Positions 6,207-30,228 of a stretch of DNA of 64,000 nucleotides are shown here, piece after piece; the first letter of the stretch is position 1; each line of letters starts with the position of its first letter. Position numbers and translations under genes: made by a program. Below the pieces are notes generated by a model that made no database searches, was not told the origin of the DNA, and was given only the letters and a program-made list of their open reading frames with translations. The stretch comes from an uncultured Treponema sp. (GTDB taxonomy: Bacteria; Spirochaetota; Spirochaetia; Treponematales; Treponemataceae): assembly GCA_946186185.1 (NCBI GenBank), contig CAMHMJ010000013.1:1-64000 (forward strand), written 5' to 3'.

Positions 6207-6312
6207 AAGTGCTCCGAAAAATTGGATAAAGACACGACTGTGCCTTAAGTCCAACTGCCAATTTCAGAAGACCTGTGGTAAAACCCGTGCAGCGCAAAAA
6301 AAATGGTCGGGG
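6207..6312 (-). promoter_or_regulatory. Conserved 5' leader shared by the two Rpn genes
   Basis: Upstream of both Rpn genes lies the same non-coding block: a GACTG.GCCTTAAGTCCA segment, then CTGCCAATTTCAGAAGAC, then a TGGTAAA..CCGTGCAGC segment. In copy 2 it spans about 30125-30228. Conservation this strong outside the coding frame suggests a promoter or leader, or the end of a mobile cassette. The copies also share AACTGCAAC.TTTAC further out (about 6416 and 30254). Confidence 0.6.
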
Positions 6313-6662: not shown

Positions 6663-9600
6663 ATGAAAAAAAATGTATTCTCAATTTTCTCAATACTCTC
6701 AGTATTGGCTTTTTTGGTAACCGGTCTTTTCACTTCCTGTGAAGTCGGTCTTGGTGAAGCGGTAGATACCTATCCGCCAACTCTCACTCTGGATTACCCG
6801 GCTAACGATGGTATTACGGTAATGAATACCTTCCAGATGCGCGGTGAAGCAAAGGATGAAACCTATGTTAAAACCGTTGAGGTAATTGTAAAAACTATTC
6901 CTAAATCCAATAAGGAAGAAAGCACTGTTCTTCAGAAATATCTTGCTGAAGTTGATACCAAGGCTAAAACCTGGTCCTGTTCAATTAACAACAAGGATGA
7001 CGCCGGAAATTTTGAAATTCCTGACGGAGAATACACTTTCCAGATGATTTGTACCGACTCATCTGACCGTACAACTGAACTTTCCCGCGTATACAAAATC
7101 GATAACACTGCCCCTGTTGTCGTATTGAAGCGCCCTGGTCTTGATGACAGTTACGGACGAACAATCAAAGTAACTGGTGATATTTCCGATGAAAACGAAC
7201 TTTCTGCCCTTTATTTTACTGCCTACCGAAATAAGGGAACAGAAGACGCTCCTGAATTTGAATTAATCGGAACTCAGAAATATGAAAATATCTCCGGTGT
7301 CGGACTTGAACTTATCGTTGGACGCTATTTTGATTCTGAAGACGGTTTAAGCGACAGCGAAATCGCTCAGAAAAAGATTTACGATGCATATTATGACTCA
7401 ACTGTGGGAGGAACACAGAATTTCTACTGTATGGTAGAGGTTGCCGACAGCGCAAAAGAATATCGTGGAAACCTTAAAAGTACCACTGCAGCTTCCCCGG
7501 CTGCAACGCTTTCAGATGCACTGGCACCTGCAGGCGGAACTTACGAAGGTGAAGTAAGCGGAAACCTTTCAACCTGCTATTATCTTTACAGCTCAATCTA
7601 TGATGATATTTACTCAAAAAATGGATTTAACATCACCAACAGTGATCTTGTTTCCATTTATAACGGTTCTTTCACTGAAACCAGCAAGGTAAAGATTGCT
7701 AATGTAAAGGAAACCCTTGAAAAGTATGCAATTAATACTTCAGCAATTTCAGCAAGTGTTTCATCCTTCAGCTTGAACCCGGATAACTCTCCGCGCTTTA
7801 AGGTTCTTGGTCTTGGAGACGCTTCAAATGTAAAGTCAGTTATTAAAAACAGCGATATCAACATTGAAATTTCCCAGGGACGAGACGGAATTTCCCTTCG
7901 TTCAAACAGTATCAGGGTTGAATTGCAGGAAGCAGAGGCTCTTGCAAACGGAACCTACAAGAAAACTGGCAACAATATTGTACTTCTTGAATCTTACAAC
8001 AAATATACAGAAATGCTTTCTTCCGACGATGCTTCTGAAGCAAGAAAGGGTGAACTTTACAAAACCTACTGGACTTCACTGAAGAAGGATGAAGATAACG
8101 TATTTAACGATGAAGCCACAAAAATTACATTTGGTATTGAGTTAAACGGTCTTTCTCCATTAAGCGAAGTTTATAAAACCGGAAAAAAATACTATGTAAG
8201 CGTAGAAGGCTGCGACTACGAAGACAACGAAATTGAATCTGCTGCATCGGATTACATTCTTGCATTCCAGAACGGTTCTGCCCCGATTATCAATGTCACC
8301 GGCGGAACAGAAGACAACTCCGTTCAGAGAACCCCTGTGGATTTCTCTACCAGCCGCTCACTTTCTGTTTCTGGTGCTCCGATTTTCAATTATTCTGGAA
8401 CTCTTGATTCTGACTCAGGTATCGAAGATCTTAAAGTCTTCTATTACATAACTGTAAAAGACGAAAAACCTGCAAAGGGTGAAACTGTTAAAACCTGGTC
8501 AACAAAGAAAGAGGACTATGCAGACAGAACCGCTGTAATTACAGAAAATACAGATTCTTCTGTTGAAGTTCCTTTCCTCTGGAGTCTTGAAATTCCTGAA
8601 GGAAGCGAAGATTTTGCAGAGCTCTATGAAATGGCTCAGGCAGACGGCAAGGATCTTTCTGACGGACTTTACCTGTATACAATTTACTTCTACGGCTATG
8701 ACGGAAGCCAGAAAACTTCAACTGTAAGCCAGCGTGTTCATGTTGATACTCAGAAGCCAGTAGTTACCATGGATGGTGTTACTCCTCTTGTAGAATATGA
8801 GGAAGCATCTGACCTTCCGTACGAAGACATGGCTATAAAAACTGATTATGTTAACGGAACTGTTACATTCAAAGGAACTGTAAGTGATAACTACACCCTC
8901 AACAATACAATTGCCCGGGCATATCTTTTAGAGGCAGACGGAACTAAAACTTCTGAGACAGCCTTTGCAACTGAAGAATTTGGTGATTCAATGTCCTTCT
9001 CATTCGTGGTAGATACTTCCAGCGTAACAGAGCCGAAGGACATGCTTGTTGAAATTGAATCAACCGATAAAGCAGGAAACACGGGCGATGTTGTTACAAA
9101 AAAAGTCCGCATCGACCAGCGTACCGATGAACCTCGCTTTATTCCTTCCAATGCAGACAAGACAATTCTTGATGTTACAAAACTGAACGAAAGTACAAAC
9201 ATGTTCGGAAAAACCAGCAACAACAAAATCATGGGTACCGTAACCGATGATGATGGAGTATGGGGCTGGCAGGCATATTATTCAGCCGGAACTTCAGAGC
9301 AGACTGCAAGCGAATGGAAGCTCTTTGCTTCAAACACAGGTATTGAATCAACTTCTGCAAATATTACCGTAGATCTTTCAAAAATTTCCGGATTTACTGA
9401 AGGCATTTATAAAATCAAAATTGAAGTAAAGGATATTGTAAAGGGTAAAGGAGCCGTTGCAAATTCTCAGGTTACTTCTTCTGATGAATTCTTTATTGCC
9501 ATCGACGAAGCCGCTCCTGCTCTTACCATTACAACTGAACAGAACTCTTATGTAAGCGGGACTGAAGGTGCTACCGTTAAGGGAAAAATCAGCGACGGAA

Positions 9601-12600
9601 GCCAGGAAATCAAGAGCTTCAAGCGTACTGTTTACCGTGTCGTAACAACAACGAACGATGAAACAGGAGAAAGTTCTGTTACAGAAATTGCAATTCCAGA
9701 AAAGGATATTCTTTCAATATTGAGCGCACCCAGCGGCTCTGCAATTAAGAACGGTCTTGAGTTCACAGATGTAATCGATTTGAACGGCGAAAAAAATCCT
9801 GGCCGCGTAAAATATTATATTACAGATAAATACGACCGCGAAAGTACAGCGGAATTCACATATATCATCGATAATGAAGACCCGACAGTTACCCTTTCTG
9901 AAGATTTAGTTGATACAACAGTCTTCCTTGCAAAGGGAAATGCAATCAAGGGTATCAGCGGTACCGCAAGGGATAATATCGAAAACGGACTTTCAAAGGT
10001 TGAATACATTATTTCTGCCTCTGAAACTGCTGCAGGTATCACAGAAACAGACTGGACAGCCTTCACCGGAACAGGAAAATGGAATTCTACAATCAACTTT
10101 GGTGAAGAAGCCGAAGGAAAGAAATACGTTTACATCCGCGCACACGATGCTGCCGGAAATAAAACAGATGCTGAAAATTACGCGCGCATTCCGGTAATCA
10201 TTGATGCTGCTGCACCTGTATTCGATGCAAGTGCATTCAAGGTTGAATATGCTGATGAGAGTGGCGATGATGTTCCTTCTTCAGAAGACGGTGCTACACG
10301 CTATGCAAACAAACTCTTCAAGATTACCGGAAAAGTAACAGACGATTATTTTGCAAAACTCACCTGTTCTGTATCCGGAAACTTGAATACAGATGACATG
10401 AACGAAAACGGTGGAGTATTCACCTGGAAAAATTCTTCACTGGAGGATGGAAGCAAAACCTACAACTTTACGGCAACGGACAAAGCTGGCCAGATTACAA
10501 CTTATCCGGTTACAATCGTAATCGATAGAACTGCTCCAACGCCAAAGCTTGGTCTTGCTTCATACTACTCACTTACTGGCACAACCTACACAGTAAACGA
10601 AAAGATTACATTTACAGGAACCGTAACTGATGCAAATGAACTGAAATCTACTGTAATCAGCGCTGTAAAAGCTGATGACGCAACAGAAACTCCTGTAACT
10701 GCAGGTGGAATTCTCCCGATAACCGCTTCAAATGCTTCTAACTTTACAGAAAGCTTTGATACAACAGCTCTTGAAGACGGCGTTTACATTTTCACTGTAA
10801 CTTCAACCGATGTTGCCGGAAACGTTGGAACTGCACAGATTAGGGTAAGCATTGATCAGGAAACTGATAAACCATTAATCACCTTCTCTAACGCAGATTC
10901 TGCTGTAACAGTTCTTTCAGATGTAAACGAACAGAGAAACCTCTTTGGTAAAACTTCAAACAATAAGATTCTTGGCTCTGTAAGCGATGACGATAAGGTT
11001 GGAACAATTACAGTTCAGTACACAACCGACTTTGACAACGCCGCCACAGAAATCCCTGCTGGCTCATGGCACACAATTGGAACCTACACCGCAACCGGTT
11101 CAACCTACAATCTTTCTATTGAACTGAAGGATGAAGACGGAAACAAGCTTTCTGAAGGTGACTACCGACTCCGTGTAATTGCAGAGGATTCAAAGAACCC
11201 TGAAGTAGACGGCACAGTTCCTGCTTCAAAACAGACCATCGTCGGTCCGTTCTACATCGGTATTGATGAGGGACTTCCTGTAATCGATATCAACAGACAG
11301 GACGGAGAAATGCTTGCCGCAGAACAGTCTGTTTCTGTAACCGGTAAGGTAAGCGACGGAAGCGGTGTTGTAACTCTCAGCCGCTACCGCCAGAAGGTAA
11401 AGAATGACGGATCCCTTGAAGAGGCTCGTGAAGAAACAACTATCACATCTGTAACTGGTAATACAAATGCAACAGAGTGGACCGATAACTTCACTTCCCT
11501 TGCTTCAAGCGAAGTTCTGACATATAAGGCAACCGACAAGTACGGCCGTGAGTCTACAAAGTCTTTCAAGTATCAGGTTGATGATGCTGACCCGACTATT
11601 GATGTAGCGGCTCCGGAAGCAGATTCCTTCCTTGGTTCTGCTTATGGAAACACAACAAAGGCATTCAGCGGAACTGCAGCTGATACAAATGGAACCGGAA
11701 AATCTGGTGTAAAGGAAATTCTTTATCGTGTAGGAACAATTAACGGTTCTTCCGTAGATTATGGAACAGCCCTGGCTGCCGGTACTGCAAACTGGCACGA
11801 CACATGGCTTAAGGCTGACGGAACAACAACCTGGAACGCCAACATTGAACTTGGAAATTCATCTTCTAAGAAGAAGGTTCAGATTCTTGCTGTGGATGGT
11901 GCAGACCGCATTTCTACAATTGAAGAAAGAACGGTAACTGTAGATGCTGTTATTCCGGTAATCACAATCAATTCTGTAACAGATACAGTGAACGCTGCTT
12001 CAAGAACTGTAACGGCTCAGGAAGGAACCTATTATGTTCAGTCCGGCTACACAATTTCCGGCACAATTACCGAAGAAAATCTTGATACTTTGAAGATTTC
12101 CGGTGTCCTTGTAACACCGGTAGATAATGGAGACGGAACCTATTCATTCTCTCATTCTGTAACTTCTCCAGATGCAGGACAGAGCACAATTTCAATTGTT
12201 GCCCTGGATAAAGCAGGACAGCAGAAGGATTTGAGCCTGAATGTGTTCTACGATACATCGGCTCCAACTCCAAGCTTTACCATTACCCCAATCTTCAGCG
12301 CAAAGGGCTGGGACGGAACGACCCGCGAAAACAATGTAAACGGAAACGTAACAATCAAGGGAACTTCTGTTGATGATGATAAGGTTGCTTCTTCTCACCT
12401 TGTAATTAAATATGCCAACGGTGCAAAAGCCGGGGTAAAGGTTTACGACAGAGACACAACTAACCCTACAAACTTTACAGGTGATGTACCTCTGTCTCTG
12501 TTCATCGAAGGAGACGGATACAATTACCTTGGAACAACTGTTAAGATTGATGACAGACAGTTGTATACAGTAGAACTTACTTCTACAGACCGTGCGGGAA

Positions 12601-15600
12601 GGGTAGGAATTGCTACTTCTGAGGTTTATGTTGATGAAAGCACGGATAAACCGATCGTAACTCTCTCTAATACAAATGTAGATATTAATAGTGCCGCTGA
12701 TGTTTCTTCTGAAAGCGGTCACAACCTCTTTAACCAGACTTCAAACAGCAAGATGCTTGGTACAATCACTGATGATGACGGTATTGCAAGCATCGTAGTA
12801 GAGTACGCAGCCGTAACAAACGGAACTGCTGCTTCTTATGAGACTGAACCGTTGTTCTCAGTTTCGAATGTGGGAACAACCTACAACTTTGCCGCAGATT
12901 TGAAGAAAAACGGTGCTTCCCTGAGTGAAGGCAAGTACAAGATCCGTATTACAGTTCTTGATACCACCGAAGCTGCTGCAAATCACAAGACTGTAGAAGA
13001 ATTCTATCTCGCTATCGATAACGGTGCGCCTTCAATTACCGTATCAACTGGCAGCGGATATATGAAGGATAACTTCACTGTTGAAGGAAAGGTAAGTGAT
13101 GCAGCCCTCAAGACAATCTACCGATATGCTGTAACACAGGGAATTCTTGCTTCAACTCCAAGTGCAAAATGGGAAGCAGGTTCTGCTTCAAATACAATTG
13201 AATATAACTCAACAACTAATGTATGGACGGACAGTTATTCTGGAATTACTGAACCAGGAACTGTAGCTTATATTGCTGCAGATGAATACGGTCAGAGCAC
13301 TGAAGTTTCGTGGTCTTATCTCTTTGATAATACCGCTCCAACAAAGGCTCCTGGATGGACACCTTCTGACATGAGCGCATGGAGCAAGAACAGTGCACAG
13401 CAGTTCAAGATTCCGGTATCTGATGAATGGAATGTAACCGGAGATTACCTGTATGATTCATGTTCAGGAATTTCTACTGTAAATATCAAGGTAGATTCAG
13501 ATGACGCTTCTACAATGGCATTGGGAAGTGCTTATGATGAATTTGAAAAGACTGTCCAGACATCAACAGGTCCTGAGCAGGTAAAACCATATAAGTACTA
13601 TAACTCAACACAGATTCTTAAGGACGGACATCATACCGTAGTAATTTCTGCTTCGGACAATGCAAATCCGGCAAATACAGCTGCAAATCTTGCAACCTAC
13701 GAAGTAAACATCGATACAACGGCTCCAAAGTATACTCTGTACACTGACGAAAATGACGAAACTAAAACATATGCCGTAAAGGCTTCTAAGTTCCTCCTTA
13801 CAGCCGCAGATGTTGCCGCTCTTGGCACAACTCCATTTACTCTCAAGGTAAAACCAAGCGATGCAAACGCTGAAGCAGTCGGTGGAGCAGTCAGCGGAAT
13901 CAAGGAATTCAAGCTTTACGACGGAAATACTCTCATTGATTCTTCAAAATATGAACTTAGCCCTGCGGCAAACGGCACAACTGGCATTTTTGCAAGCGGC
14001 GTTGAATACACCTTTACATTGAATGCTTCTGCCGTAAACCAGACCGGAAACCACAACTTCTACGTTGAAGCAATCGATGGTGCCGGAAACTCTGTAAAGG
14101 AAAGCGTAAGCGTAAGCATTGATACAACGGCTCCTGTAATTTCTGTAAATGACCCGAGCCCTTATGTTTCTGTAAGCGGAGCAAGAAAATACAATGGTAT
14201 CATCACAATCAGCGGTAAGGCTGAAGATGAAACCGAGCTTGGTACAACAGGTGCTCTTGAATACGAGGTTCTCTCAAGTGCAGGAGCATCCCTTTCTCCT
14301 CGTGTTACAGGAACTGTTGACCTTACAGGCGGAAAATCAAGCGACTTCAGCTTTGATATTGATACAACCGCCCTTACCGGAAGCAACGCAACCGGAACCT
14401 TCAAGATTAAGGTTACTGCAAAGGATAAGGTTCAGAATACTGTAGATAACTCTGCTGCTCTTGCAGACGGTTCTTCTAAACTGATTTTGAACGTAGACCA
14501 GACAACAGATAAGCCAGTTGTAAAGCTTTCTAACGCAAATGTTAAGGTTACAACAGAAGCCCAGATCAGTTCTACAACAGTTACAAGCGAAACTGCTAGT
14601 GCAAACAAAGGTAACCTCTTTGGTATGGGTAACGATTCAATCTTTGCAAGCGCAACCGATGATGACGGTATTGCAGGCATTGAACTCAAGGTATTCTACA
14701 ACGGAAGCTACAAGACTGTTCACAAAGTGGGAGACGAATCAAAGCCTTACTTTGAGGTAACAGACTCTCCTACAAGTTATCCAATGGAAATTGACCTTAC
14801 TAAGGTTCTTCCACAGGTAAGCGGCTCTACAACTCATTACGCCGGAACCTACAAACTTGCCATTGTTGTAACAGATATCTACAATACAAGCACAATGTCT
14901 AACAGGACATTTACTGTAAACGATGACGGCGTAAACGGCGTATACTTTGCTTACGATGATGACCTTCCGGTAATCAATGTAACTAAGATTAATGACAGCA
15001 CTTATGCAGATTCAATGTGGACTCAGACAAACTCTAAGGTTTACATTGTAGTAAGCGATTCTTCAAGTTCTGACAGCCACACAGGTCTTACTGTAACAAA
15101 CGATGTAATTCAGGTTTGGAACGGAACATCTTATGTTGATCGTGCTAGGGCTTCCGGAGAAAATGCAACAATTTCTTGGAGCTCAACTGATAACGCATTC
15201 ATCCATAATGCGGTAAACGAAAACTTTACTTATAAGCGAAAATACACCGTAACTGACAAGTACGGCCGAAGTTCAACCAAAGAAATTTCATACATGGTTG
15301 ATAATGAAAAACCTGTATTCCACACGGATAAGGTTTCTGTACAGGGAACAAACAACAGTGCAAGCAATACTGTAGCAACATCTTCCCTTGCTTCGACCTG
15401 GTTCAGTACAAGCTCACTTAAGGTTGTAGGTGATGCCGGTGCCCTTGTGGAAGCAAATCCGGAAACTGTACTTATTACAGTTGGTACTGATTCAACTCCT
15501 GTAAACCCGACAAATTCTGATTCAAATAAGGGCTTTGGAACAACGCTCCAGCTGTCAGAAGGTGCAAATACAATCAAGTTTGACGCAACAGATAAGGCAG

Positions 15601-18600
15601 GCTATTCAGCAGACCAGGTATCTATTACGGTTTATGTTGATACAGTTGCACCGACCTGTTCAAGCATTGCTGCAAGCGACAGCTTTATTTCAGGCGCAGA
15701 TGTTGCAGCCCTTGGTACAACTCCGTTCAAACTTTCTGTAACAGTTTCTGATGCAACAAGCGGAATTTCTTCATTCAGGATTTACGACGGAAATACGGAT
15801 ATAACCGAGCACTTTACAATTCCTGCTGCAAGCGGAAACAAAACTTATGAGTTTGCATTAAAAGCTGCTTCGGCTAGTACAGTAATTACTACAGGAACTC
15901 ATACATTTGCCGTAGAAACCTACGACCTTGCAGGAAACAAGGTAAAAGACACAGTTTCTGTTGCAGTAGATGTAACCGCTCCAACTCTTGAATTCAACGA
16001 AGTTTCTCCTTATGTAAATGTTACAAGCGGAGATACAACCGTAAGAAAGTACAACGGTGTTGTTACAGTAAGCGGAAGGGCAAAGGATGAAACTGAACTT
16101 GGTACAACTGGAGCCCTTACTTATGAAATCTTAAAATCTGACGGAACAAGCTTTAGTCCTAAGAAAGAAGGAACTGTAAACTTGGTCGGAGGACTTTCAA
16201 GTGACTGGACATTCGATGTAGATACAACTTCGCTTTCTGCAACGACAGGTACCTTCAAGGTTAAGGTAACTGCTCTAGATAAGGTTTCTAATGCAGCGGA
16301 TAACAGTTCAAGCCTAATTGTTCTGAACATAGATCAGACAACCGATAAGCCTGTAGTCAAACTTTCTAACGCAAACGTTCTTGTTACAACGGCAGCCCAG
16401 ATAAGCAATACAGCAGTAACAAGCACAACGGCAAGTGAAAACAAAGGTAACCTCTTTGGTATGGGTAACGATTCAATCTTTGCAAGCGCAACCGATGATG
16501 ACGGAATTGCAAGCATTGAACTTAAAGTATTCTATGATGACGGAACAGGTTCTGGCTCTTATGTAACCGTTCACAAAGTTGGTGATGCAACAAAGCCGTA
16601 CTTTGAAGTATCCGATAGTCCAACAAGCTATGCAATGGAAATTGACCTTACAAAGGTTCTTTCTCAGGTAAGAAATTCTAACACAAGCTACGCTGGAACA
16701 TACAAGCTTGCCCTTGTTGTAAAAGATATTTATAACCAGAGCAGTCTTACAAGCAATACTTATACTGTAAACTCAGACAGTGTAAACGGCGTATACTTTG
16801 CATACGACGACGACCTTCCAACAATCAATGTAACTAAGATTGGTAGTTCAAATTACACTGACGGAATGTGGACTACTGTTAATGCAGATGTTGTAATTAC
16901 AGTAAGCGATTCTTCAAGTTCTGATAATCATACAGGTCTTACTGTTACAAACGAGACAATTCAGTGGTGGGATGCTAATCAGAGTACTTATGTAACAGGA
17001 ACAGCTGGTACCGGCGAAAGTGCAACAGCTGTCTGGGACGAACCAAATAGCGTATTCAAACATTCAACTGTAAACTCTGATAAGACTTACAAGCGAAAGT
17101 ATCGCGTAACCGATAAATACGGCAGAAGTTCTACAAAAGAAATCTCTTACGTTGTAGATAACGTAGTGCCTGTATTCAATCTTGATAATGTTGCACTCTT
17201 CGGTTCAAGCCCGAGCATTGGAACTGGAGTAACTGCAGCTGACGGCGTTGTAATCGGAACTTCAAAAGATTACTGGTTCAATTCTGATGCTGTAAAAGTA
17301 ATTGGACGCGGAAGTGCAGCTGGACAGGCACTTGTTGAAGAGCACCCTGAAAGCGTAACAATTACTGCAGGTGGAACAAATTATCCTGTAAACCCAGGTG
17401 AATTTAATAAATTCAGTACAACAATCAGTTTTGCAGACGGTGAAAATACAATCAAGTTTAATGCAACTGATAAGGCAGGAAACTCTGCTGTCGAAGTAAC
17501 TCAAACTTTGAAGGTTGATACAAAGTCGCCTGTAATTTCAAGTGTAAGCACAAGTGCTGCTGCAATAAACGGTTCAAATATCAGTAATCCGTTCTATATC
17601 ACAGTAGCTGCTTCCGATGCAAATTCTTCTGCAACTGGTGGAAAAGTCAGCGGAATCAAGGGCTTCACGGTTTACGACGGAACTACAGAACTTGCTGCCG
17701 CTAAATACACAGTCCGAACAGGAACGGCGGCAACTTCTGCAGTAGCTTCGGCTACAAACGGCGTTTACGCAGACGGAACATATTACATCCATCTTGACTC
17801 AAGCGTACTTACAACCGGCGATCATACCTTCTATGTAGAAGTAACTGATAATGCTGACAATACCAGCAAGGAAAAAACAGCTCTCATAAGCATCGACGTA
17901 ACGCCTCCTACAATGAGCTGGAACGTTCCAAGTCCGTTCGTTCAGGGCGAAACTGATAAGCTTTACAACGGAATCATTACCGTTAGCGGTACAGTAACTG
18001 ACGAAACCCTTCTTGCAACAGACAATCCAACGGCCGCTGAAAGTGCTACAACACGAAGCGTAAGCTGGGAAGTTAAGACTTCAGCCGGTGCAAGCCTTGC
18101 AACTCCTGTTAAGGGATATGCAGTGCTCAGCGGAAACAAGACAAGTAGTTTCAGTTTTGATATTGATACAACAAGAGTTCAGACAGAAACTGGAACTTAC
18201 CGAATCTACATCACAGCAAAAGATAACGTAGGAAATACGGTATCTAAGGCAGGTAGTGGTTCTGGCGCCGGAGTAGATTACATCGAACTTAAGATTGACC
18301 AGACAACTAACAAGCCGAAGGTAGTTATTTCAAGTCTTGAAGAAGTAACTGAATACAGTTCAGAATACCCTGCAAGAAACCTCTTTGGTATGGGTAACAC
18401 TATTATTTACGGTACTGTAACCGATGATGATGGTGTTTCTGCTGTTACAATTAAGATTGATGATACAGTTATACAGGATGATACAATTCCGGATAATCAC
18501 CCGACAAGCTATGCAATTGCAATCAACCTTGAGGGAATCGAAATTAATGGTGAAAAGATTACATCCGGCGCTCATACATTCACAATCGAAGTAACAGACT

Positions 18601-21600
18601 GTTCAACGGGTCTTAGCGATACAAAGTATGTGGACAATAAAGACATTAAAGACATCTACTTTGCTTACGACAACGACCTTCCTACAATCAGTGTTGCCCG
18701 CTGTAACGATAAGGATTACACCAACAATATGTGGGGTAAAGCGGAATTCGACGTATACATTTCAGTTCAGGATGAAACTGATATGACCGGCGAAAATCTT
18801 AAAGTTGAATGTACAGAGATTAAGCGAAGTGATGACGGAAAAACAGGAACTTATGACGATTATACTCTTCCTGAAGGAACTGTTGAAACAGTCGTATGGA
18901 CACCAAGCTTAACAATTGACGATAATGGAACCCCTGGAGATACTTCAGACGATACTGTAATCACCAATGTATGGAAGTGTCCGACACACAGTAACGAAGG
19001 TTACTTCCAGAGAACTTACAAAGTAACCGATAAGTACGGACGAAGTACAACAACCGCGATTAACTACATAGTTGACGGTACGGTTCCTGAATTCAATAAC
19101 AGTTTCATAACTGTTCAGGGAACAAGCAACAGAGGAACAAGTGCTATTTCAATAAGCACCTTGAATACTGAAGAATACAGCGATACCTGGTTCTCAAGCA
19201 GTTCTATCAAGATTTCGGGATCTGGTTCTTCTTACACGGGTAACAATACTGCAATCAAAGAGCAGAACGTTGAAACTCTTGTAATCAACGCAAACGGCAC
19301 ACAGTATCCTGTAAATACCGGAACGAACAATAAATTCAATTCTACAGTTGACTTTGAGGACGGAAGTGCAAAACAGTTCAGCCTTACTGTAACGGATAAA
19401 GCTGGTAACTCTGCAAATGCAGGTCCATTCACAGTAAATGTAGATACAACTGCACCGACAGATGTAACAGGCGAACTTAAGAAGGCTGACGGAAGTACGG
19501 CAGTTTCTGATAATTCAATTATAAACGACACTGTATTGAAGCTTTCTGTAAAGGCAAAGGATACAACCAGTGGAGTGAAGACTATTTACGTCGGAAAAAC
19601 ACCGGGCTTCCCTAAGACTGAAGCAATCAAGACGGAAGTGCTTACAAGTGCAAATGCTACTGCTGCCGGATATTCTGGAATTATTACGCTTAATGTTGGT
19701 GACAGCACAAGCGGAAATAAAGAATACCTTGCAGATGGAACTTACTCTCTCTATATTCGCGTAGAAGACCTTGCTGGAAACATCACAGATGGTTCTACTG
19801 CTGTTGCAAGCTTCACAGTAGACCGCACGGCTCCGGCTGTAACGATTACAACACCAGTTCGCTCTACTGTAATCGATAACGAATGGAAAATCAGCGGAAC
19901 TGTAAGCGATAACAACTTTGTAGCAAATGGTTCTCTCCCAGAACTCTGGGTATACAAGAACAATGCATGGGTTAAGATTGATACTGCTAGTGGTTACGGA
20001 ACTTCTTCAATAGTTTCTAATTCTGCAGCACGCTCAGGAAACGATTGGCATATTACACTTGACTCAACTAAGATAAATGCCGCAAGCGGAAGTCCAACAG
20101 ACGCCTTCCTTGCAGTACGCATCACAGACGCTGCAGGAAACGTTACTGCACTCCCAACGGGAAACCCTTCTAAGGACAGCGAAACATTCTATTACCTCAC
20201 AGTAGATCAGGACAACGACCGACCAGTAATTAAATTCAGTGATGTAACGGGAGAAACCGGCTACACAAGCCTTTATGCATGTTACATCAAGGGAAATATC
20301 AGCGACCTCGATGGCGTAAATACATTCAAAGTTTCTCCAACTGCAAAAACAGAAGAAGAATGGGGAAGTTATGATTGTTCAAGCCTTCTTAAACTTTCTA
20401 AAAGCGGAGACTTTACTTATACTCCGGCTGATGCAACAGATGGTGAGCATACATTGTACTTCTATGTTGAGGATAAAGCTGGTACTAAGTTCTGGACAGG
20501 AAAAGATAACACAAATCATCTTACTCTTCCTTATGTTGTTTATGCAACTGAAGATGAGTCAGAAACAAAAGACGACAATACTGGTGTAATCAAGTTTACA
20601 AGTGATAGAACTCCTCCAAGTATCGACAGTCTTGTCTGTGGTGTTGGTGCAACTGCAGAGGCTGCTGTAAATAATGCTGTCGAAAAACTTTCTAAAGACG
20701 CAACAATGGGAGCAACGACGGTTGCAGGCGGAAATACCCGCAAGTTTATCGCTTTTGCAGTAAAAGCAAGTGATAAAAACGGTATTGCAAAAGTTATCTA
20801 CACAAAACCGACTGCATACAATTCAACTACAAAGGAATTTACTTACAGCGAAGTTGAACAAACAACGGCAGTAGAAAAGACTTATACAGTAACTGAAGGC
20901 GAAAATTCAACAGAATATAAAGCTACGGCATACTACTTTGATGCAATAGATATTTCTGAATTTACGGACGCTACAAATAAAGAAGTTACTCCATCAATTA
21001 CCTTTACTGCTGTCGACGGTTCTACTTTGGAACGAGAACAGGCTAAGTCATTGGTATTGACTATTGCAGGTCCTGAGGTAAATATTGATTCTCCAAATGC
21101 TTCGGATCCGTTGAGTGCAGGAAACACAGCTTATCTTTCAGGAAGCGTAACTGCACAGAACAATGTTTCTGTAAGCGACCTTAAGTACATTTATGTAAAC
21201 AACAAGGTTTACGATACTCTGGATTCTGCTGGTGCAAGCGGACGTTCTAATACAACGACAACCGGTTACACCTTCCCGACAACAGTAAGCTATGGCGGAA
21301 AGACAGGAGTTGAGGCAAAGATTGCATATATTAAGGCTCAGGCAGCTTCTCATACTGACGGACATCCTTCGGTATATGGTGTTGCAGATATGGAAACCAA
21401 CTATACCGCAAGCAGATTTAAGTGGGCTCTTAAGGGACATCTCCCTGATGAAAATACTGTCGCTGATACAGCAGTACATGCAAACGAAATATCTTATGTT
21501 AAACACGATTCAAAGGGTATTTACGAACTTCCTGTCTGGATTCTTGCAACAGATGAGCTTGGAAACGAAACATTGTCTGTTCATACCCAGCGATATAATC

Positions 21601-24600
21601 CTTACGGAGACCGTGCAACGACTAAGATAACGTATCCTGAGGCAAGGGCACATGATGGCGAATCTGTAGATTACGCAGAGCTTTCAGGTACAATCCGAGT
21701 TTCAGGTACATCTGAAGACAACGGTTCTGTAGGAAGCGTTTATATCCAGATAGATGCAAACGGTGACAATGCTTATGATGCTGCCGACGTTGCTCTTTTG
21801 AAAAATAAGTATTCGGTTTATACAAATACTGCTGCTAATGCAACAAAGTACGGAATCGATAGTACTAATATAATTTCTAATGGAAAATGGGAAAGCGATC
21901 CTGACTTCTGGGGAATTAAGGCAACAGGTACTGCAAGCTGGTACATTACTTTGAACAAAGAAAAAGAACTTCATAATGGTTATAATGTCGGAACAGATGG
22001 TAAACCGATTTATAAGGTAAAAATTCGAGCAGTTGCTATCGATGACGGCTTAAAACTTGGTACCTGGTCTGATGATATGCAGCTTAGAATTAATCCTAAT
22101 GCTCCAAAGATTGGTACAAACGTTCCGGCTTATATTCTTGATGCCGCTGGTAAACGACATGCCGTAACAAATGATATGTGGCTTAAAGGTGAAACATATC
22201 TTTGTGTTTCAGTTCAGCATTCTGCTGGCATTGCTGATTACTCTTATACTAGTGCTGTAAGTCAGGCTGGTCTTGCAAGTGCAGTTGAAGTACCAAAAGC
22301 AAGCATTATCACTATAGGAACAGGAACAAGTTATGAAACCTGGAAAGATATTACTGGTTACGTAGGTCCTAAATCTGATTATGATGAAAATTCTAAACCA
22401 ACTGATGCAAAAGATTCTGGATATGTATTGAAGATTCCTCTTAATACTGGATCAGGTTCTGGTACTCGAGCAATCAAAGTCTGGGCACAGGATGCTACTT
22501 CAAGTGGACTTGTTTCTGAAGAGCTTTATACATTCAATTACGACAATGACGCACCTGTTGTCGGCAAAGTTGAATACAATGGCATTGAATGGACAGGAGC
22601 ATCTGCATTGCAGAACAGTCAGGGCTCATTCAGTGTAGGAGGACAAATCGAAGACGTCGCAAGTGGCTTTAATATGGCTCTCTGGTATTTCTATCGCGAT
22701 GAAAATGGAACTGCTGGTAAGAACCGCCGTGTATACGATCCTACAAAGGATCATAAAAAGAATGCTTCTGCTTCCCGCGTTTATGTAACCGGCGATACTG
22801 CAAATACAACAGCAACTTCCGGCTATACTCTTAAAACTGGAATTAGCGAAAAGGTTTATGAAGAAGAAGTAGATGGAGAAAAAGTAAAATATCCGGTTTA
22901 TGGTGTAACTTATAATGCTTCAACAACAATAAAGTTGACTCGAACTAACTCTACAAGCCTTACACTTTCTGATGTTGATTCGCACATTACAAATGGCAGT
23001 GCAGTTTACATAAACGGCACCTGGCTCTTGCTTAAGGATTCTACAGATAATAAGACCTTCAGTCTTTCTGCAGAAGTTCCAGATACAGAAACAGAAGCCT
23101 TCTTCCCTTATGCAAAAGTTATCGATGTTGGAGCTATTACACAGGGTGAAAAGTGTACAGACTGGTCAGCTCTTACATATACAGATGATGATGGCGACGG
23201 AGTAATCGAAGGATGTAAGAAATCAGGTTCAATCTGGTCTTGGGATGCTTCATTCAGAAGTGATTACGTTCCGGATGGTAATGTAACGCTTGTACTTGTT
23301 GCAATCGATAATTCTGGTAATATTACCGCAACCAGCCGAACAGGTAAGATTCAGAATAATGCACCTCGTCTTGCAAAACTCCACCTTGCAACCGACTTGA
23401 ACGGTGATAGTAAGTTCGCTGACAGTGAGTTTGAAAGCTATGATATTCTTACAAGCGCAAGTGGTTACCAGAGCGATTACAACCTTGCAACTACTAATTT
23501 CGGTCTTTCTACAGAACAAATTAGTGCTGGAAATGCTCGCCCTGCATTCATCGTAAAAGATACTCTTGGTATCGTACCAGAATTTACAGGCGGAAACGGC
23601 GATATTGCTCTTGTTTATAAGTTGAACGATTCAACAGCACAGAGTACAGCTTCCCGCGATGTAAAAGATAAGACTTATGATAATACAAACGGTGGTATAA
23701 GACTTGATTTTGATACTGGAAACTATACAAGCGGAAATACTGAGTTTACGGATGGTAAACACAAGTGGCTTTATACGATGTCAAACAAAGCTGTAACCGG
23801 TAAAACAGGGGATGCAACACCTGTCGAAAGTGACGATGTAACAGGAAAGCACATCTCATTCACCTTCTGGGATAGCACTGAAGAATGTACTCAAGGTTTT
23901 GACAGCCAGAGCTGCTATGTTCAGATTACAGATTTGACTGTAGATGTAACTGATGGTGATGCTCCGAAAGTTGTAATTAATCCGTTCTACTGGAGTTCAT
24001 CTACTGTAAACAGTTTGTTCAAAAACAGTAAAGATAATGGACATATCGAACTTTCCGGCGATTTACCGACAGCGACATTCAATGTTGCAAATACAGCAAC
24101 AAGCGGTGAGTATGATAACGACCCTAAAGTTTCCGGAAAGATTACATTTACCGGAACGGCATACGACGAACATACGTTAGGAAGTCTTGCGTTCACGCTT
24201 AAAAATTCAAGCGGTACTGCGCTTACAGGCTTTAGTAATATTTCAATGGCAACATTTAGTGCTTTGAATACAGCAAATACAGCAAACGGCGGCTGGTCTG
24301 CAGTAAGCGGAAACAGTGGAAGCGCGCTTGCATCTGGCGGAAAGTACGAATGGACAATCAGTCAGGATAAGAGCGGTAGCGAACTCAAGGCTGGTTACTA
24401 TGATGATACTTATTACCAGAATCAGAAAGGACATAAGATTTTCTGGACAATCAGCATTGATTCAGCCCAGATTCCAAACGTTGCACAAAATGATATTACA
24501 CTTACCGTAACCGCAACCGATAAAGCCGGAACTTCTTCTGGTTCTGCCGTAACCGCTCCAAATACAACTGACGGTTATGTTGTGACAGACGGAACAACCA

Positions 24601-26399
24601 ATGTCCCAAGTTACAAGGTGGACGTTGTACCGTATATTACAGATATTCTTACTGGTGATCTTGATACAGGTACAACAAGGAAGCATTTGCGCCGTTCTGC
24701 AAGCGGAGCATTTGTAACAAGTATTGATGATGCAGCTACGACACAAAATGCAAATAATAATAAGATTATCGTAAATGGCTTTAACCTAAAAGGCGGAAAT
24801 GTTTACCTTGGTACTACTGCAAAAACCACTGCAGCTTCTGGAAATACTTTAACTGTACTTAAGAATTTACTTACTTCAGGTGAAATTAAAGTTGTAAATA
24901 ATTCCGTGAACAGTTTGAACAATGTAAACAATGATGCAAAGGACTATAATAAAGAACCTGCACAATATGCTCCAAATCTTGTAGATAACCGCTATATTTA
25001 CATGTGGGATACAACGACGACTACTTACAGTGGCGCTGAAGCTGTTATGAAACCAGAAATCAATACAAGTGGTGTTAAAACTGGAAATATGGTTTGGTAT
25101 TATGCAAGTAACATTGAGAAGATGTACCAGAATGACATGGAATTAACATCTTCTTGGGGTGGTGCCATAGTTGGTGGAAACTTCGCATATAATGATGTTG
25201 GTGTTCCTTCTTGGGTTTATTTGCATAATACTAGCTGGACTTCTAGTGCAACAAATAAAAAGAAATATTATGAATATGGTTCCGTTCACTGGGGTAAAGA
25301 ATGGTTCAACTATTCGGCAAAGAGTTGGAATGTTGGTAGAACCACTGATAATCATGGAAAACTTGGATTAGGAAATCTTTCTTTTGAAGGAAGCAGTAAT
25401 TACAATTTTAACGATACAGTAATGAGTCGTTATCAGAATATTAAGGTGTTGGCAAGCGGAAATGCTACAGATACATTAAACATGGTTGCGTATTTTGATA
25501 AATCAGACGTATCGCGTTCTATAGTTTTCTGGCGATTCCATGATGGAACAGGTATAACAAGTAAGAACTATGAGTTATCTCGTAACAACAATAATGTAAC
25601 TTCCTATTCAGATATAGGAAAGTCTGCTGGACAGACTCAAACATATGAAAATCGGAATAGTACAGCCTCTAATGGTATGGATACGCCACTTGGTCGTGAA
25701 AACCTAACTTCTGGTGGCGCAGACAGTAAGTATTTCGATATGGCTTATGACTCTGTAAAGAATGTTGCCTACATTGCTTACTATGATGAAGCCGCCGGTG
25801 CGCTTAAGATTATGTATCTTAATAATCCAAAGGCTGGTACATATGGTAACTGGACAAATTCATGGAGTAATGCCGTAGAAATTGACCCAGATGCGGCTGG
25901 TCAGTACATCGCAATGAAGACGGACGGTAGCGGTAACATACATCTAGCTTACTACGACTCAACTGGTTCCTACTTAAAATATGCTCTTATTACGCCTACT
26001 GGAAATACTGGAGCAATTACTGCTCTTACTGTTTCAAAGAAAGTTCTTGTAGACACGCTCTTCTCAAATGGTATGTATAACAGTATTACTCTTAAACAGT
26101 TTGCGACAGGTGATGTTCGTCCTGTAATTTGTAGTTACTCAATTTCATTTGGTGGAACAAAGTATTCACTTCGTACATCATGGCCACTTACAACTGTTGC
26201 AAATATAGAAGCAGGTGCAGATGATGATGGTTATACAGGAAAATGGGAAACTGTTGTTGTATGCTCTGCAAATGCACCTAGTCAGGATAATACCTATATT
26301 GAGACGAACAGCACTGGTTATACAGGAAATATCGTCGTAGGTTACACGGCATCAAAACTTGAGCAAGCTGAATTAAAAGGAGAGTTAAAGAAAGAGTAA
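6663..26399 (+). CDS. Giant Ig-like repeat lipoprotein (6578 aa)
   Basis: The start is a lipoprotein signal (hydrophobic FSIFSILSVLAFLVTG, lipobox LFTSC, lipidated Cys26), with a strong AGGGGGG ribosome-binding site. From about residue 45 to 5900 the chain is a train of beta-sandwich domains joined by linkers such as DTTAPV, DRTAPT and DQTTDKP, with TDKAGN and TDKYGRSS turns. I count about 35 such linkers. A higher-order unit of about 580-655 residues recurs seven times. From about residue 5980 the sequence changes: an IPT/TIG-like stretch (NKIIVNGFNLKGGNVYLG) and then propeller-like repeats (AYYDEAAGALKIMYL, LAYYDSTGSYLKYAL). No transmembrane anchor is seen other than the lipid. It is probably a surface or periplasmic adhesin-like fibre, held by the lipid and displaying the propeller at the tip. 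Ligand and function are unknown. No frameshift interrupts almost 20 kb of ORF. Confidence 0.9.
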   Translation: MKKNVFSIFSILSVLAFLVTGLFTSCEVGLGEAVDTYPPTLTLDYPANDGITVMNTFQMRGEAKDETYVKTVEVIVKTIPKSNKEESTVLQKYLAEVDTKAKTWSCSINNKDDAGNFEIPDGEYTFQMICTDSSDRTTELSRVYKIDNTAPVVVLKRPGLDDSYGRTIKVTGDISDENELSALYFTAYRNKGTEDAPEFELIGTQKYENISGVGLELIVGRYFDSEDGLSDSEIAQKKIYDAYYDSTVGGTQNFYCMVEVADSAKEYRGNLKSTTAASPAATLSDALAPAGGTYEGEVSGNLSTCYYLYSSIYDDIYSKNGFNITNSDLVSIYNGSFTETSKVKIANVKETLEKYAINTSAISASVSSFSLNPDNSPRFKVLGLGDASNVKSVIKNSDINIEISQGRDGISLRSNSIRVELQEAEALANGTYKKTGNNIVLLESYNKYTEMLSSDDASEARKGELYKTYWTSLKKDEDNVFNDEATKITFGIELNGLSPLSEVYKTGKKYYVSVEGCDYEDNEIESAASDYILAFQNGSAPIINVTGGTEDNSVQRTPVDFSTSRSLSVSGAPIFNYSGTLDSDSGIEDLKVFYYITVKDEKPAKGETVKTWSTKKEDYADRTAVITENTDSSVEVPFLWSLEIPEGSEDFAELYEMAQADGKDLSDGLYLYTIYFYGYDGSQKTSTVSQRVHVDTQKPVVTMDGVTPLVEYEEASDLPYEDMAIKTDYVNGTVTFKGTVSDNYTLNNTIARAYLLEADGTKTSETAFATEEFGDSMSFSFVVDTSSVTEPKDMLVEIESTDKAGNTGDVVTKKVRIDQRTDEPRFIPSNADKTILDVTKLNESTNMFGKTSNNKIMGTVTDDDGVWGWQAYYSAGTSEQTASEWKLFASNTGIESTSANITVDLSKISGFTEGIYKIKIEVKDIVKGKGAVANSQVTSSDEFFIAIDEAAPALTITTEQNSYVSGTEGATVKGKISDGSQEIKSFKRTVYRVVTTTNDETGESSVTEIAIPEKDILSILSAPSGSAIKNGLEFTDVIDLNGEKNPGRVKYYITDKYDRESTAEFTYIIDNEDPTVTLSEDLVDTTVFLAKGNAIKGISGTARDNIENGLSKVEYIISASETAAGITETDWTAFTGTGKWNSTINFGEEAEGKKYVYIRAHDAAGNKTDAENYARIPVIIDAAAPVFDASAFKVEYADESGDDVPSSEDGATRYANKLFKITGKVTDDYFAKLTCSVSGNLNTDDMNENGGVFTWKNSSLEDGSKTYNFTATDKAGQITTYPVTIVIDRTAPTPKLGLASYYSLTGTTYTVNEKITFTGTVTDANELKSTVISAVKADDATETPVTAGGILPITASNASNFTESFDTTALEDGVYIFTVTSTDVAGNVGTAQIRVSIDQETDKPLITFSNADSAVTVLSDVNEQRNLFGKTSNNKILGSVSDDDKVGTITVQYTTDFDNAATEIPAGSWHTIGTYTATGSTYNLSIELKDEDGNKLSEGDYRLRVIAEDSKNPEVDGTVPASKQTIVGPFYIGIDEGLPVIDINRQDGEMLAAEQSVSVTGKVSDGSGVVTLSRYRQKVKNDGSLEEAREETTITSVTGNTNATEWTDNFTSLASSEVLTYKATDKYGRESTKSFKYQVDDADPTIDVAAPEADSFLGSAYGNTTKAFSGTAADTNGTGKSGVKEILYRVGTINGSSVDYGTALAAGTANWHDTWLKADGTTTWNANIELGNSSSKKKVQILAVDGADRISTIEERTVTVDAVIPVITINSVTDTVNAASRTVTAQEGTYYVQSGYTISGTITEENLDTLKISGVLVTPVDNGDGTYSFSHSVTSPDAGQSTISIVALDKAGQQKDLSLNVFYDTSAPTPSFTITPIFSAKGWDGTTRENNVNGNVTIKGTSVDDDKVASSHLVIKYANGAKAGVKVYDRDTTNPTNFTGDVPLSLFIEGDGYNYLGTTVKIDDRQLYTVELTSTDRAGRVGIATSEVYVDESTDKPIVTLSNTNVDINSAADVSSESGHNLFNQTSNSKMLGTITDDDGIASIVVEYAAVTNGTAASYETEPLFSVSNVGTTYNFAADLKKNGASLSEGKYKIRITVLDTTEAAANHKTVEEFYLAIDNGAPSITVSTGSGYMKDNFTVEGKVSDAALKTIYRYAVTQGILASTPSAKWEAGSASNTIEYNSTTNVWTDSYSGITEPGTVAYIAADEYGQSTEVSWSYLFDNTAPTKAPGWTPSDMSAWSKNSAQQFKIPVSDEWNVTGDYLYDSCSGISTVNIKVDSDDASTMALGSAYDEFEKTVQTSTGPEQVKPYKYYNSTQILKDGHHTVVISASDNANPANTAANLATYEVNIDTTAPKYTLYTDENDETKTYAVKASKFLLTAADVAALGTTPFTLKVKPSDANAEAVGGAVSGIKEFKLYDGNTLIDSSKYELSPAANGTTGIFASGVEYTFTLNASAVNQTGNHNFYVEAIDGAGNSVKESVSVSIDTTAPVISVNDPSPYVSVSGARKYNGIITISGKAEDETELGTTGALEYEVLSSAGASLSPRVTGTVDLTGGKSSDFSFDIDTTALTGSNATGTFKIKVTAKDKVQNTVDNSAALADGSSKLILNVDQTTDKPVVKLSNANVKVTTEAQISSTTVTSETASANKGNLFGMGNDSIFASATDDDGIAGIELKVFYNGSYKTVHKVGDESKPYFEVTDSPTSYPMEIDLTKVLPQVSGSTTHYAGTYKLAIVVTDIYNTSTMSNRTFTVNDDGVNGVYFAYDDDLPVINVTKINDSTYADSMWTQTNSKVYIVVSDSSSSDSHTGLTVTNDVIQVWNGTSYVDRARASGENATISWSSTDNAFIHNAVNENFTYKRKYTVTDKYGRSSTKEISYMVDNEKPVFHTDKVSVQGTNNSASNTVATSSLASTWFSTSSLKVVGDAGALVEANPETVLITVGTDSTPVNPTNSDSNKGFGTTLQLSEGANTIKFDATDKAGYSADQVSITVYVDTVAPTCSSIAASDSFISGADVAALGTTPFKLSVTVSDATSGISSFRIYDGNTDITEHFTIPAASGNKTYEFALKAASASTVITTGTHTFAVETYDLAGNKVKDTVSVAVDVTAPTLEFNEVSPYVNVTSGDTTVRKYNGVVTVSGRAKDETELGTTGALTYEILKSDGTSFSPKKEGTVNLVGGLSSDWTFDVDTTSLSATTGTFKVKVTALDKVSNAADNSSSLIVLNIDQTTDKPVVKLSNANVLVTTAAQISNTAVTSTTASENKGNLFGMGNDSIFASATDDDGIASIELKVFYDDGTGSGSYVTVHKVGDATKPYFEVSDSPTSYAMEIDLTKVLSQVRNSNTSYAGTYKLALVVKDIYNQSSLTSNTYTVNSDSVNGVYFAYDDDLPTINVTKIGSSNYTDGMWTTVNADVVITVSDSSSSDNHTGLTVTNETIQWWDANQSTYVTGTAGTGESATAVWDEPNSVFKHSTVNSDKTYKRKYRVTDKYGRSSTKEISYVVDNVVPVFNLDNVALFGSSPSIGTGVTAADGVVIGTSKDYWFNSDAVKVIGRGSAAGQALVEEHPESVTITAGGTNYPVNPGEFNKFSTTISFADGENTIKFNATDKAGNSAVEVTQTLKVDTKSPVISSVSTSAAAINGSNISNPFYITVAASDANSSATGGKVSGIKGFTVYDGTTELAAAKYTVRTGTAATSAVASATNGVYADGTYYIHLDSSVLTTGDHTFYVEVTDNADNTSKEKTALISIDVTPPTMSWNVPSPFVQGETDKLYNGIITVSGTVTDETLLATDNPTAAESATTRSVSWEVKTSAGASLATPVKGYAVLSGNKTSSFSFDIDTTRVQTETGTYRIYITAKDNVGNTVSKAGSGSGAGVDYIELKIDQTTNKPKVVISSLEEVTEYSSEYPARNLFGMGNTIIYGTVTDDDGVSAVTIKIDDTVIQDDTIPDNHPTSYAIAINLEGIEINGEKITSGAHTFTIEVTDCSTGLSDTKYVDNKDIKDIYFAYDNDLPTISVARCNDKDYTNNMWGKAEFDVYISVQDETDMTGENLKVECTEIKRSDDGKTGTYDDYTLPEGTVETVVWTPSLTIDDNGTPGDTSDDTVITNVWKCPTHSNEGYFQRTYKVTDKYGRSTTTAINYIVDGTVPEFNNSFITVQGTSNRGTSAISISTLNTEEYSDTWFSSSSIKISGSGSSYTGNNTAIKEQNVETLVINANGTQYPVNTGTNNKFNSTVDFEDGSAKQFSLTVTDKAGNSANAGPFTVNVDTTAPTDVTGELKKADGSTAVSDNSIINDTVLKLSVKAKDTTSGVKTIYVGKTPGFPKTEAIKTEVLTSANATAAGYSGIITLNVGDSTSGNKEYLADGTYSLYIRVEDLAGNITDGSTAVASFTVDRTAPAVTITTPVRSTVIDNEWKISGTVSDNNFVANGSLPELWVYKNNAWVKIDTASGYGTSSIVSNSAARSGNDWHITLDSTKINAASGSPTDAFLAVRITDAAGNVTALPTGNPSKDSETFYYLTVDQDNDRPVIKFSDVTGETGYTSLYACYIKGNISDLDGVNTFKVSPTAKTEEEWGSYDCSSLLKLSKSGDFTYTPADATDGEHTLYFYVEDKAGTKFWTGKDNTNHLTLPYVVYATEDESETKDDNTGVIKFTSDRTPPSIDSLVCGVGATAEAAVNNAVEKLSKDATMGATTVAGGNTRKFIAFAVKASDKNGIAKVIYTKPTAYNSTTKEFTYSEVEQTTAVEKTYTVTEGENSTEYKATAYYFDAIDISEFTDATNKEVTPSITFTAVDGSTLEREQAKSLVLTIAGPEVNIDSPNASDPLSAGNTAYLSGSVTAQNNVSVSDLKYIYVNNKVYDTLDSAGASGRSNTTTTGYTFPTTVSYGGKTGVEAKIAYIKAQAASHTDGHPSVYGVADMETNYTASRFKWALKGHLPDENTVADTAVHANEISYVKHDSKGIYELPVWILATDELGNETLSVHTQRYNPYGDRATTKITYPEARAHDGESVDYAELSGTIRVSGTSEDNGSVGSVYIQIDANGDNAYDAADVALLKNKYSVYTNTAANATKYGIDSTNIISNGKWESDPDFWGIKATGTASWYITLNKEKELHNGYNVGTDGKPIYKVKIRAVAIDDGLKLGTWSDDMQLRINPNAPKIGTNVPAYILDAAGKRHAVTNDMWLKGETYLCVSVQHSAGIADYSYTSAVSQAGLASAVEVPKASIITIGTGTSYETWKDITGYVGPKSDYDENSKPTDAKDSGYVLKIPLNTGSGSGTRAIKVWAQDATSSGLVSEELYTFNYDNDAPVVGKVEYNGIEWTGASALQNSQGSFSVGGQIEDVASGFNMALWYFYRDENGTAGKNRRVYDPTKDHKKNASASRVYVTGDTANTTATSGYTLKTGISEKVYEEEVDGEKVKYPVYGVTYNASTTIKLTRTNSTSLTLSDVDSHITNGSAVYINGTWLLLKDSTDNKTFSLSAEVPDTETEAFFPYAKVIDVGAITQGEKCTDWSALTYTDDDGDGVIEGCKKSGSIWSWDASFRSDYVPDGNVTLVLVAIDNSGNITATSRTGKIQNNAPRLAKLHLATDLNGDSKFADSEFESYDILTSASGYQSDYNLATTNFGLSTEQISAGNARPAFIVKDTLGIVPEFTGGNGDIALVYKLNDSTAQSTASRDVKDKTYDNTNGGIRLDFDTGNYTSGNTEFTDGKHKWLYTMSNKAVTGKTGDATPVESDDVTGKHISFTFWDSTEECTQGFDSQSCYVQITDLTVDVTDGDAPKVVINPFYWSSSTVNSLFKNSKDNGHIELSGDLPTATFNVANTATSGEYDNDPKVSGKITFTGTAYDEHTLGSLAFTLKNSSGTALTGFSNISMATFSALNTANTANGGWSAVSGNSGSALASGGKYEWTISQDKSGSELKAGYYDDTYYQNQKGHKIFWTISIDSAQIPNVAQNDITLTVTATDKAGTSSGSAVTAPNTTDGYVVTDGTTNVPSYKVDVVPYITDILTGDLDTGTTRKHLRRSASGAFVTSIDDAATTQNANNNKIIVNGFNLKGGNVYLGTTAKTTAASGNTLTVLKNLLTSGEIKVVNNSVNSLNNVNNDAKDYNKEPAQYAPNLVDNRYIYMWDTTTTTYSGAEAVMKPEINTSGVKTGNMVWYYASNIEKMYQNDMELTSSWGGAIVGGNFAYNDVGVPSWVYLHNTSWTSSATNKKKYYEYGSVHWGKEWFNYSAKSWNVGRTTDNHGKLGLGNLSFEGSSNYNFNDTVMSRYQNIKVLASGNATDTLNMVAYFDKSDVSRSIVFWRFHDGTGITSKNYELSRNNNNVTSYSDIGKSAGQTQTYENRNSTASNGMDTPLGRENLTSGGADSKYFDMAYDSVKNVAYIAYYDEAAGALKIMYLNNPKAGTYGNWTNSWSNAVEIDPDAAGQYIAMKTDGSGNIHLAYYDSTGSYLKYALITPTGNTGAITALTVSKKVLVDTLFSNGMYNSITLKQFATGDVRPVICSYSISFGGTKYSLRTSWPLTTVANIEAGADDDGYTGKWETVVVCSANAPSQDNTYIETNSTGYTGNIVVGYTASKLEQAELKGELKKE
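9111..22560 (+). repeat. Higher-order repeat (about 1.74-1.97 kb units) inside the giant lipoprotein gene
   Basis: The marker linker [IV]D[QE]..[TN][DN][KER]P begins units at 9111, 10851, 12630, 14493, 16329, 18294 and 20202. Spacings are 1740, 1779, 1863, 1836, 1965 and 1908 bases. Inside most units the order is NLFG..SN/GN, DDDG (specific calcium-like loop), a D[DNEG]..P linker such as AYDDDLP, TDKYGRSS, then TDKAG and further DTTAP linkers. Units starting at 14493 and 16329 are the closest in DNA, with a 64-base perfect match at offset 1836. The last unit degenerates after about 22560. Confidence 0.8.
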
Positions 26400-26523: not shown

Positions 26524-26610
26524 GAAAGGCACTTCGCAGTTTAGCGTCTTGCCTCACGTTTTAGGTTCAAGACCGCCACATGGGTTGAAGACTGTGGCGG
26601 TCTTATTTTT
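26524..26610 (+). ncRNA. Module 1 antitoxin-like antisense RNA
   Basis: Promoter TTGCTT (26489-26494), 17-base spacer, TATATT (26512-26517). The RNA begins near 26524, opens with AAAGGCACTTCGCAG...CTTGCCTC (5' hairpin AGGCA/TGCCT) and ends in the hairpin GACCGCCACA/TGTGGCGGTC with a T-run. It lacks the middle hairpin found in most other modules. It is antisense to the 3' UTR of toxin 1. Confidence 0.65.
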
Positions 26611-27172: not shown

Positions 27173-27376
27173 AGCAGCCTCCTGTGGAAGGCTGCTGGCA
27201 GCCGGTGTTCTATAGCAAAGCGTTAAAAAAATTGCGAAAGCAATTTTTAGCTTTACCTACATGTGCAAGAATCTGCCCTTGCGAACAGTCGAATTTCGGA
27301 GACAAGACCGCCATTCAATTGCGAATGTAAAAAAAATCGGCTTGTCATAAACAACAAGCCGTGGTATATTAATAAA

Positions 27377-28499: not shown

Positions 28500-28502
28500 A
28501 TT

Positions 28503-30124: not shown

Positions 30125-30228
30125 ACATACATCCTGAAAATGGAATAAACGGCGCGACTGCGCCTTAAGTCCATCTGCCAATTTCAGAAGACATATGGTA
30201 AATACCGTGCAGCCTGTAAAAATAATGG

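Follow-up and report, generated by a model that had tools for sequence, protein, structure and literature searches.

The window considered here (the whole 64,000-nucleotide stretch of DNA from an uncultured Treponema species) contains, at 6663..26399 of its forward strand, a giant lipoprotein gene. A single ATG-initiated open reading frame encodes 6578 residues (~702 kDa, pI 4.5), and the reading frame, which an earlier sequence-only reading had described as an uninterrupted 19.7 kilobases, is indeed open throughout. A strong ribosome-binding site (AAGGGGGG) is located immediately 5' of the ATG at 6663. The GC3 of the gene is 0.32 and drops to 0.25-0.28 near the region encoding the tip, as compared to higher values (0.39-0.46) in neighboring genes.

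The nearest gene-size open reading frame upstream, on the opposite strand at 5238..6254, encodes an Rpn-family recombination-promoting nuclease (T_den_put_tspse; TIGR01784, E 1.5e-27), and a second Rpn-family gene (E 7e-20) is found downstream at 29228..30181, also on the minus strand. The giant is followed immediately, at 26609-32166 on the minus strand, by ten tandem units of approximately 400-500 bp each, with conserved flanking stretches, and each unit encodes a hydrophobic peptide of 31-34 residues (M[ST]L[YF]E..L.LAIAIAQLI..I..LL.RR.K). These peptides resemble type I toxins of the Hol_Tox/TxpA-BsrG type (one of them matches Pfam Hol_Tox at E 0.046, below the cut-off), and the array would, judged by its sequence, resemble a ten-copy type I toxin-antitoxin system.

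Anchor, stalk and tip

The protein begins with a hydrophobic signal peptide followed by the lipobox LFTSC (6663..6740), in which the cysteine at residue 26, as that reading had proposed, corresponds to the lipid-accepting position; we infer that Cys26 would be lipidated. Every family member whose N-terminus is intact has the same arrangement. Directly 3' of the lipid-Cys codon runs a motif shared by the family, C-x(1-5)-GLG-xx-[VI]-D (6738..6770; here CEVGLGEAVDT), that was found in 44 of 48 5'-complete reading frames and, the remaining four being frames that lack a proper N-terminus, in all 44 intact ones. The N-terminal region that follows (aa 27-817; 6741..9113) is Ig-like, with Ig-domain matches that range from weak to clear at aa 36-213 and 539-817.

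Domain profiles placed 37-42 non-overlapping Ig-like domains in the protein, with Pfam matches to Big_13 and Big_3_3, and an Ig-type linker pattern was matched 30 times, against a mean of 7.7 and a maximum of 17 in shuffled sequences; ~35 linkers had been counted previously. The markers that open the super-units were recovered exactly where they had been placed, at aa 818, 1398, 1991, 2612, 3224, 3879 and 4515, with a spacing of 580-655 residues. A modelled super-unit was then split into its five domains, and one profile for each was searched over the whole protein. The profiles occur in the register 1-2-3-4-5 six times without a gap between aa 818 and 4514 (9114-20204), which accounts for 30 domains and establishes the repeat as six-fold, while the Ig matches outside that range are weaker and out of order. 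Past aa 4515 the register is gone (profile scores of 2-15 bits, versus 41-95 bits within the repeat), and the putative seventh unit reaches just 16-21% identity to the other units, which share 23-57% among themselves. The seventh super-unit of the earlier count was therefore rejected, its marker at aa 4515 opening unrelated sequence, and the end of the repeat was moved from ~22560 to near 20204. The sequence beyond (aa 4515-5555; 20205..23327) is divergent and weakly Ig-like.

By the same register, the super-units, all on the plus strand, correspond to aa 818-1397 (unit 1, with five Ig domains; 9114..10853), 1398-1990 (unit 2, with 32-33% amino acid identity to unit 1; 10854..12632), 1991-2611 (unit 3; 12633..14495), 2612-3223 (unit 4; 14496..16331), 3224-3878 (unit 5; 16332..18296) and 3879-4514 (unit 6, the final one; 18297..20204). 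Units 4 and 5, which are 57% identical in amino acid and 63% in nucleotide sequence, are the youngest duplicate pair. The copies are too divergent for a collapsed or stuttered repeat in the assembly to be a likely explanation of the array.

Structure prediction of one super-unit, which had been proposed as a check, yielded beta-sandwiches: the AlphaFold model of unit 4, calculated from an alignment of 41 of its own and related units, is a string of five such domains (mean pLDDT 84, pTM 0.68). Foldseek comparison against the PDB returned the Ig domains of PrgB and the extenders of RTX adhesins among the best matches of this unit, including the tetra-repeat of an Aeromonas RTX adhesin. A likeness to the OmpL47-type domain of Leptospira amounts to one match in the giant, where the NCBIfam model covers a single stalk Ig stretch at 46.9 bits (cut-off 40); the full OmpL47 equivalog scores far below its cut-off (40.6 versus 250).

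Beyond the divergent region lies the most conserved part of the protein in a 62-sequence alignment, a pre-tip (aa 5556-5995; 23328..24647) carrying the motifs FTFWDST, GHIEL, PKVSGKI and DVVPYI. FTFWDST is located at aa 5733 and VVPYI at aa 5988, and this FWD..DVVPY block precedes the tip as it does across the family, where a DVVPY-type motif is found ~550-860 residues before the C-terminus of nearly all complete members. The tip itself (aa 5996-6578; 24648..26396) comprises an IPT-like domain and a propeller-like head and ends in LEQAELKGELKKE, whereas most relatives end instead in ...NPVLGYAI..IETAQMK.

Alignment and model both bear out the view that the C-terminal ~600 residues differ in type from the stalk. 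In an AlphaFold model of the C-terminal 1023 residues, built with 62 relatives aligned (pLDDT 77, pTM 0.77), the pre-tip sandwiches are well predicted; IPT-like and propeller-like parts appear as anticipated, with less certainty than the pre-tip, portions of the propeller being below pLDDT 50. Sialidase-type, lectin and integrin propellers were the best PDB matches of the tip in Foldseek, at modest target-normalized TM-scores of 0.4-0.57, and the top matches include neuraminidases, a pseudaminidase and a Treponema denticola sialidase. No curated Pfam or NCBIfam family covers the tip, and no PDB sequence matched it, even at E 5-10.

Distribution and mosaicism of the family

The source genome holds three paralogs, of 3823, 4899 and 4538 residues, and a scan of 85,462 species retained 74 loci whose titles all name Treponema or another member of the Spirochaetota, so that the notion of a unique protein was discarded. 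(Adjoining the 4538-residue paralog, at L010:688-8415 of G000:C5, is a 2575-residue lipoprotein with BspA-like leucine-rich repeats that is unrelated to the giants.) Species named among those loci include T. ruminis, T. saccharophilum, T. zioleckii, T. berlinense and T. porcinum; most relatives are derived from guts and rumens, and ~70 of them display the same architecture. Family members were found in 41 of 59 sampled genomes of the giant's genus, with 1-9 matches per positive genome and a longest open frame of 10,197 residues, in 98 of 145 genomes of its taxonomic family, and, at a loose cut-off, in 63 of 247 genomes and 37 of 125 genera of the phylum. A search of the open-access literature returned no paper on such a family in treponemes, and it apparently represents a previously undescribed, spirochete-wide family of lipid-anchored Ig fibers with a propeller-like head.

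The five-domain super-unit of the giant is present in zero to three copies in other members, the six described here being the most among complete ones. The incomplete member L078 repeats a three-domain unit instead, and members of 10,197, 7,564 and 6,986 residues display different internal periods; since members differ in what they repeat, length grows by local duplication of different groups of domains. Among 20 relatives, none is a near ortholog of the whole 6578-residue protein. Its closest relatives in the tip are L012 (64% amino acid identity) and L013 (58%), and the comparison with L012 gives a dN/dS of ~0.2 for the tip (dN 0.29, dS 1.46).

Comparisons between loci demonstrated recombination, across species boundaries, of the N-terminal region, the stalk and the tip. 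The C11 paralog of the source genome (L006, G000:C11) and its T. porcinum counterpart (L080) are 97.5% identical in nucleotide sequence over a stretch that begins inside an ABC-ATPase gene upstream and covers the first ~800 codons, and again 97.2% identical from the last ten codons through a downstream Rpn gene; between these conserved ends the two are unalignable save for one 400-nucleotide patch at 71%. The ATPase gene is whole in T. porcinum, whereas the C11 locus retains only its truncated 3' end, at the border of the locus, and a HigA-like antitoxin gene lies outside. The genes that flank the 6578-residue giant are 70-75% identical in T. porcinum and scattered there, an observation that led us to reject a sister-strain relationship and that, together with the truncated ATPase gene, argues for reading the C11 locus as laterally acquired. 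The simplest reading of these alignments would be that the locus was acquired laterally and that one of the two lineages also exchanged its stalk-tip cassette.

The same mosaicism is seen elsewhere in the family. The first part of L047 is 89% identical to L043 of T. saccharophilum and its later part 90% identical to L024 of T. zioleckii; identity between L028 and L032 climbs stepwise from 66% through 80% to 95%; and L012 and L013 share high identity (86.5%) in the tip only. In 12 of 21 cases with a downstream Rpn gene, that gene is situated within 300 bp of the giant's 3' end, and it is our guess that Rpn proteins may take part in the exchange of segments.

A co-inherited protein with an Ig string and a probable barrel

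One class of gene adjoining the giants encodes proteins of ~1,500-2,300 residues with a signal peptide, a string of Ig domains and a C-terminal part of ~200 residues that ends in phenylalanine. From its length, its pattern and the terminal Phe, this C-terminal part is probably a small (8-strand-sized) outer-membrane beta-barrel. The protein returned no match to PDB sequences, even at E 5-10, and its match to the NCBIfam OmpL47-type domain is below the cut-off. In 13 loci the barrel gene directly neighbors a giant on the same strand, at a gap of 0-485 bp, and such adjacency is seen again in further families and classes; the copy in the source genome (G000:C23:16340-22411, 45% identical over its full length) is not adjacent to a giant.

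Profile searches of identical genome samples for the tip and for the barrel protein established that giants are almost always inherited together with it. In the taxonomic-family sample, 96 genomes held both, 2 a giant only, 5 a barrel only and 42 neither (phi 0.89, from raw counts that ignore kinship), and in the phylum sample under strict cut-offs the corresponding numbers, again irrespective of kinship, were 41, 0, 4 and 202. Several genomes of the giant's genus lack both genes, beside congeners that hold both. Two other neighbors served for comparison: cl3, which is substrate- or sugar-binding-protein-like (phi 0.67), and cl9 (phi 0.37). The latter was rejected as an obligate member of the module; the former is a possible one. 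Genes of the cl3 type encode a sugar-ABC-binding-protein-like protein with an N-terminal membrane anchor and often lie opposite and next to giants (L013:15310-16566 and 15 other loci; the source genome's own copy is at G000:C16:55040-56359), with which they are partly co-inherited.

Proposed arrangement and alternative readings

The giant is best read, by analogy, as a modular surface fiber or adhesin that may work like the Lig proteins of Leptospira. In the arrangement that we propose, and consider moderately probable as a whole, the fiber would be anchored to the outer membrane by lipid on its N-terminal cysteine, and its stalk would be formed by ~40 Ig sandwiches, of which the 30 in the six super-units would have arisen by internal duplication. 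Beyond the stalk and the conserved pre-tip, the propeller-like head would most likely bind a ligand (glycan or protein) away from the cell. The Ig-string/barrel protein would be needed by the giants, or work with them, and would help to place or hold them at the outer membrane; super-unit duplication and the recombination of segments across loci and species, often beside Rpn genes, would vary both the head and the length of the stalk. The very long lipid-anchored fiber with a distinct tip that the sequence-only reading had envisaged is consistent with all that was computed, namely the lipobox and its motif, the Ig model, the conserved tip and the architecture shared by relatives; the seven-fold count of that reading does not hold.

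An Ig domain is roughly 4 nm long, and ~40 of them would span about 160 nm, a length that exceeds the spirochete periplasm several-fold and makes it likely that the fiber is exposed at the surface or runs along the cell. It is considerably less probable that the giants are periplasmic, held in the inner membrane or in the outer membrane's inner leaflet as a structural element or scaffold along the cell that the barrel protein would anchor to the outer membrane; the long Ig string of that protein could itself face the periplasm, the pre-tip is the most conserved part, and the periplasmic substrate-binding-like cl3 partly co-occurs. The estimated length argues against such a location, variable and exchanged stalks and tips suggest an exposed position, and 1-9 copies of 3-10 thousand residues would be odd for a scaffold. 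A similarly modest chance is given to the view that giants and barrel protein are associated merely through shared ancestry and joint loss with large accessory regions, and have no joint function: the co-occurrence counts ignore phylogeny, and the syntenic cl3 and cl9 correlate with giants too. Nevertheless, the barrel is much more tightly correlated than these syntenic neighbors, its link stays tight where it is physically unlinked from giants (as in the source genome itself), and its adjacency to giants extends to other families and classes.

We regard as very unlikely that the head is an enzyme, a sialidase-like propeller on a stalk that acts on host or plant glycans. The neuraminidase, pseudaminidase and sialidase matches of the tip and the gut and rumen origin of most relatives would be in keeping with that role, but propeller likeness is general, the Pfam and NCBIfam scans contained no glycosidase match, and neither of the features of GH33 sialidases that were sought, the Asp-box SxDxGxTW and the FRIP-type motif, occurs anywhere in the protein. 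Lacking the Asp-box, the head of the proposed fiber is likelier to bind than to cleave.

Several known systems share parts of this design. Large RTX adhesins and PrgB-type stalks likewise join a long Ig extender to a ligand-binding end, and a type I secretion plug or a cell-wall anchor retains them; the giant instead carries a lipid anchor at its N-terminus and lacks an RTX C-terminus, and the Pfam and NCBIfam scans gave no RTX match that would indicate RTX repeats or a type I secretion signal. Intimin and invasin (inverse autotransporters) resemble the barrel partner in combining Ig domains with an outer-membrane barrel, although the partner's barrel, at ~200 residues, is C-terminal and only of 8-strand size, the opposite of intimin. 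LigA, LigB and LigC are, like the giants, spirochete lipoproteins built from Ig-like domains in tandem, LigB and LigC having a C-terminal extension as well, and the giant shares with them a signal peptide with lipobox and the tandem bacterial Ig-like domains. Lig proteins contain 12-13 Big_2 domains of ~90 residues, whereas the giant contains ~40 Big_13-like domains of 110-140 residues in five-domain super-units; as Pfam returned Big_13 and no Big_2 match, the giant would work like Lig and not belong to that family. A propeller-like tip has not been described for Lig, and the giants additionally have a barrel partner and several loci per genome, the comparison being with Lig as described. LigA and LigB have in common the six and a half domains at the N-terminus and differ from there on (PMC7821625, PMC12183334), a pattern that resembles the exchange seen among giants.

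A bolder and more doubtful extension is that these genes constitute a two-part outer-membrane display system, in which one barrel protein might export or dock several interchangeable giants while adjacent Rpn proteins help to shuffle stalk and head cassettes between species. To our knowledge, gut and rumen treponemes are abundant and their surface is hardly characterized, and we know of no large secretion machines in spirochetes. Proteins of 3,000-10,000 residues, encoded several per genome with a near-obligate barrel partner and subject to exchange, would represent a major part of the treponeme surface; with a head domain that is common to the family and lies outside all curated families, they would offer a concrete test of how spirochetes deliver very large proteins to the cell surface.
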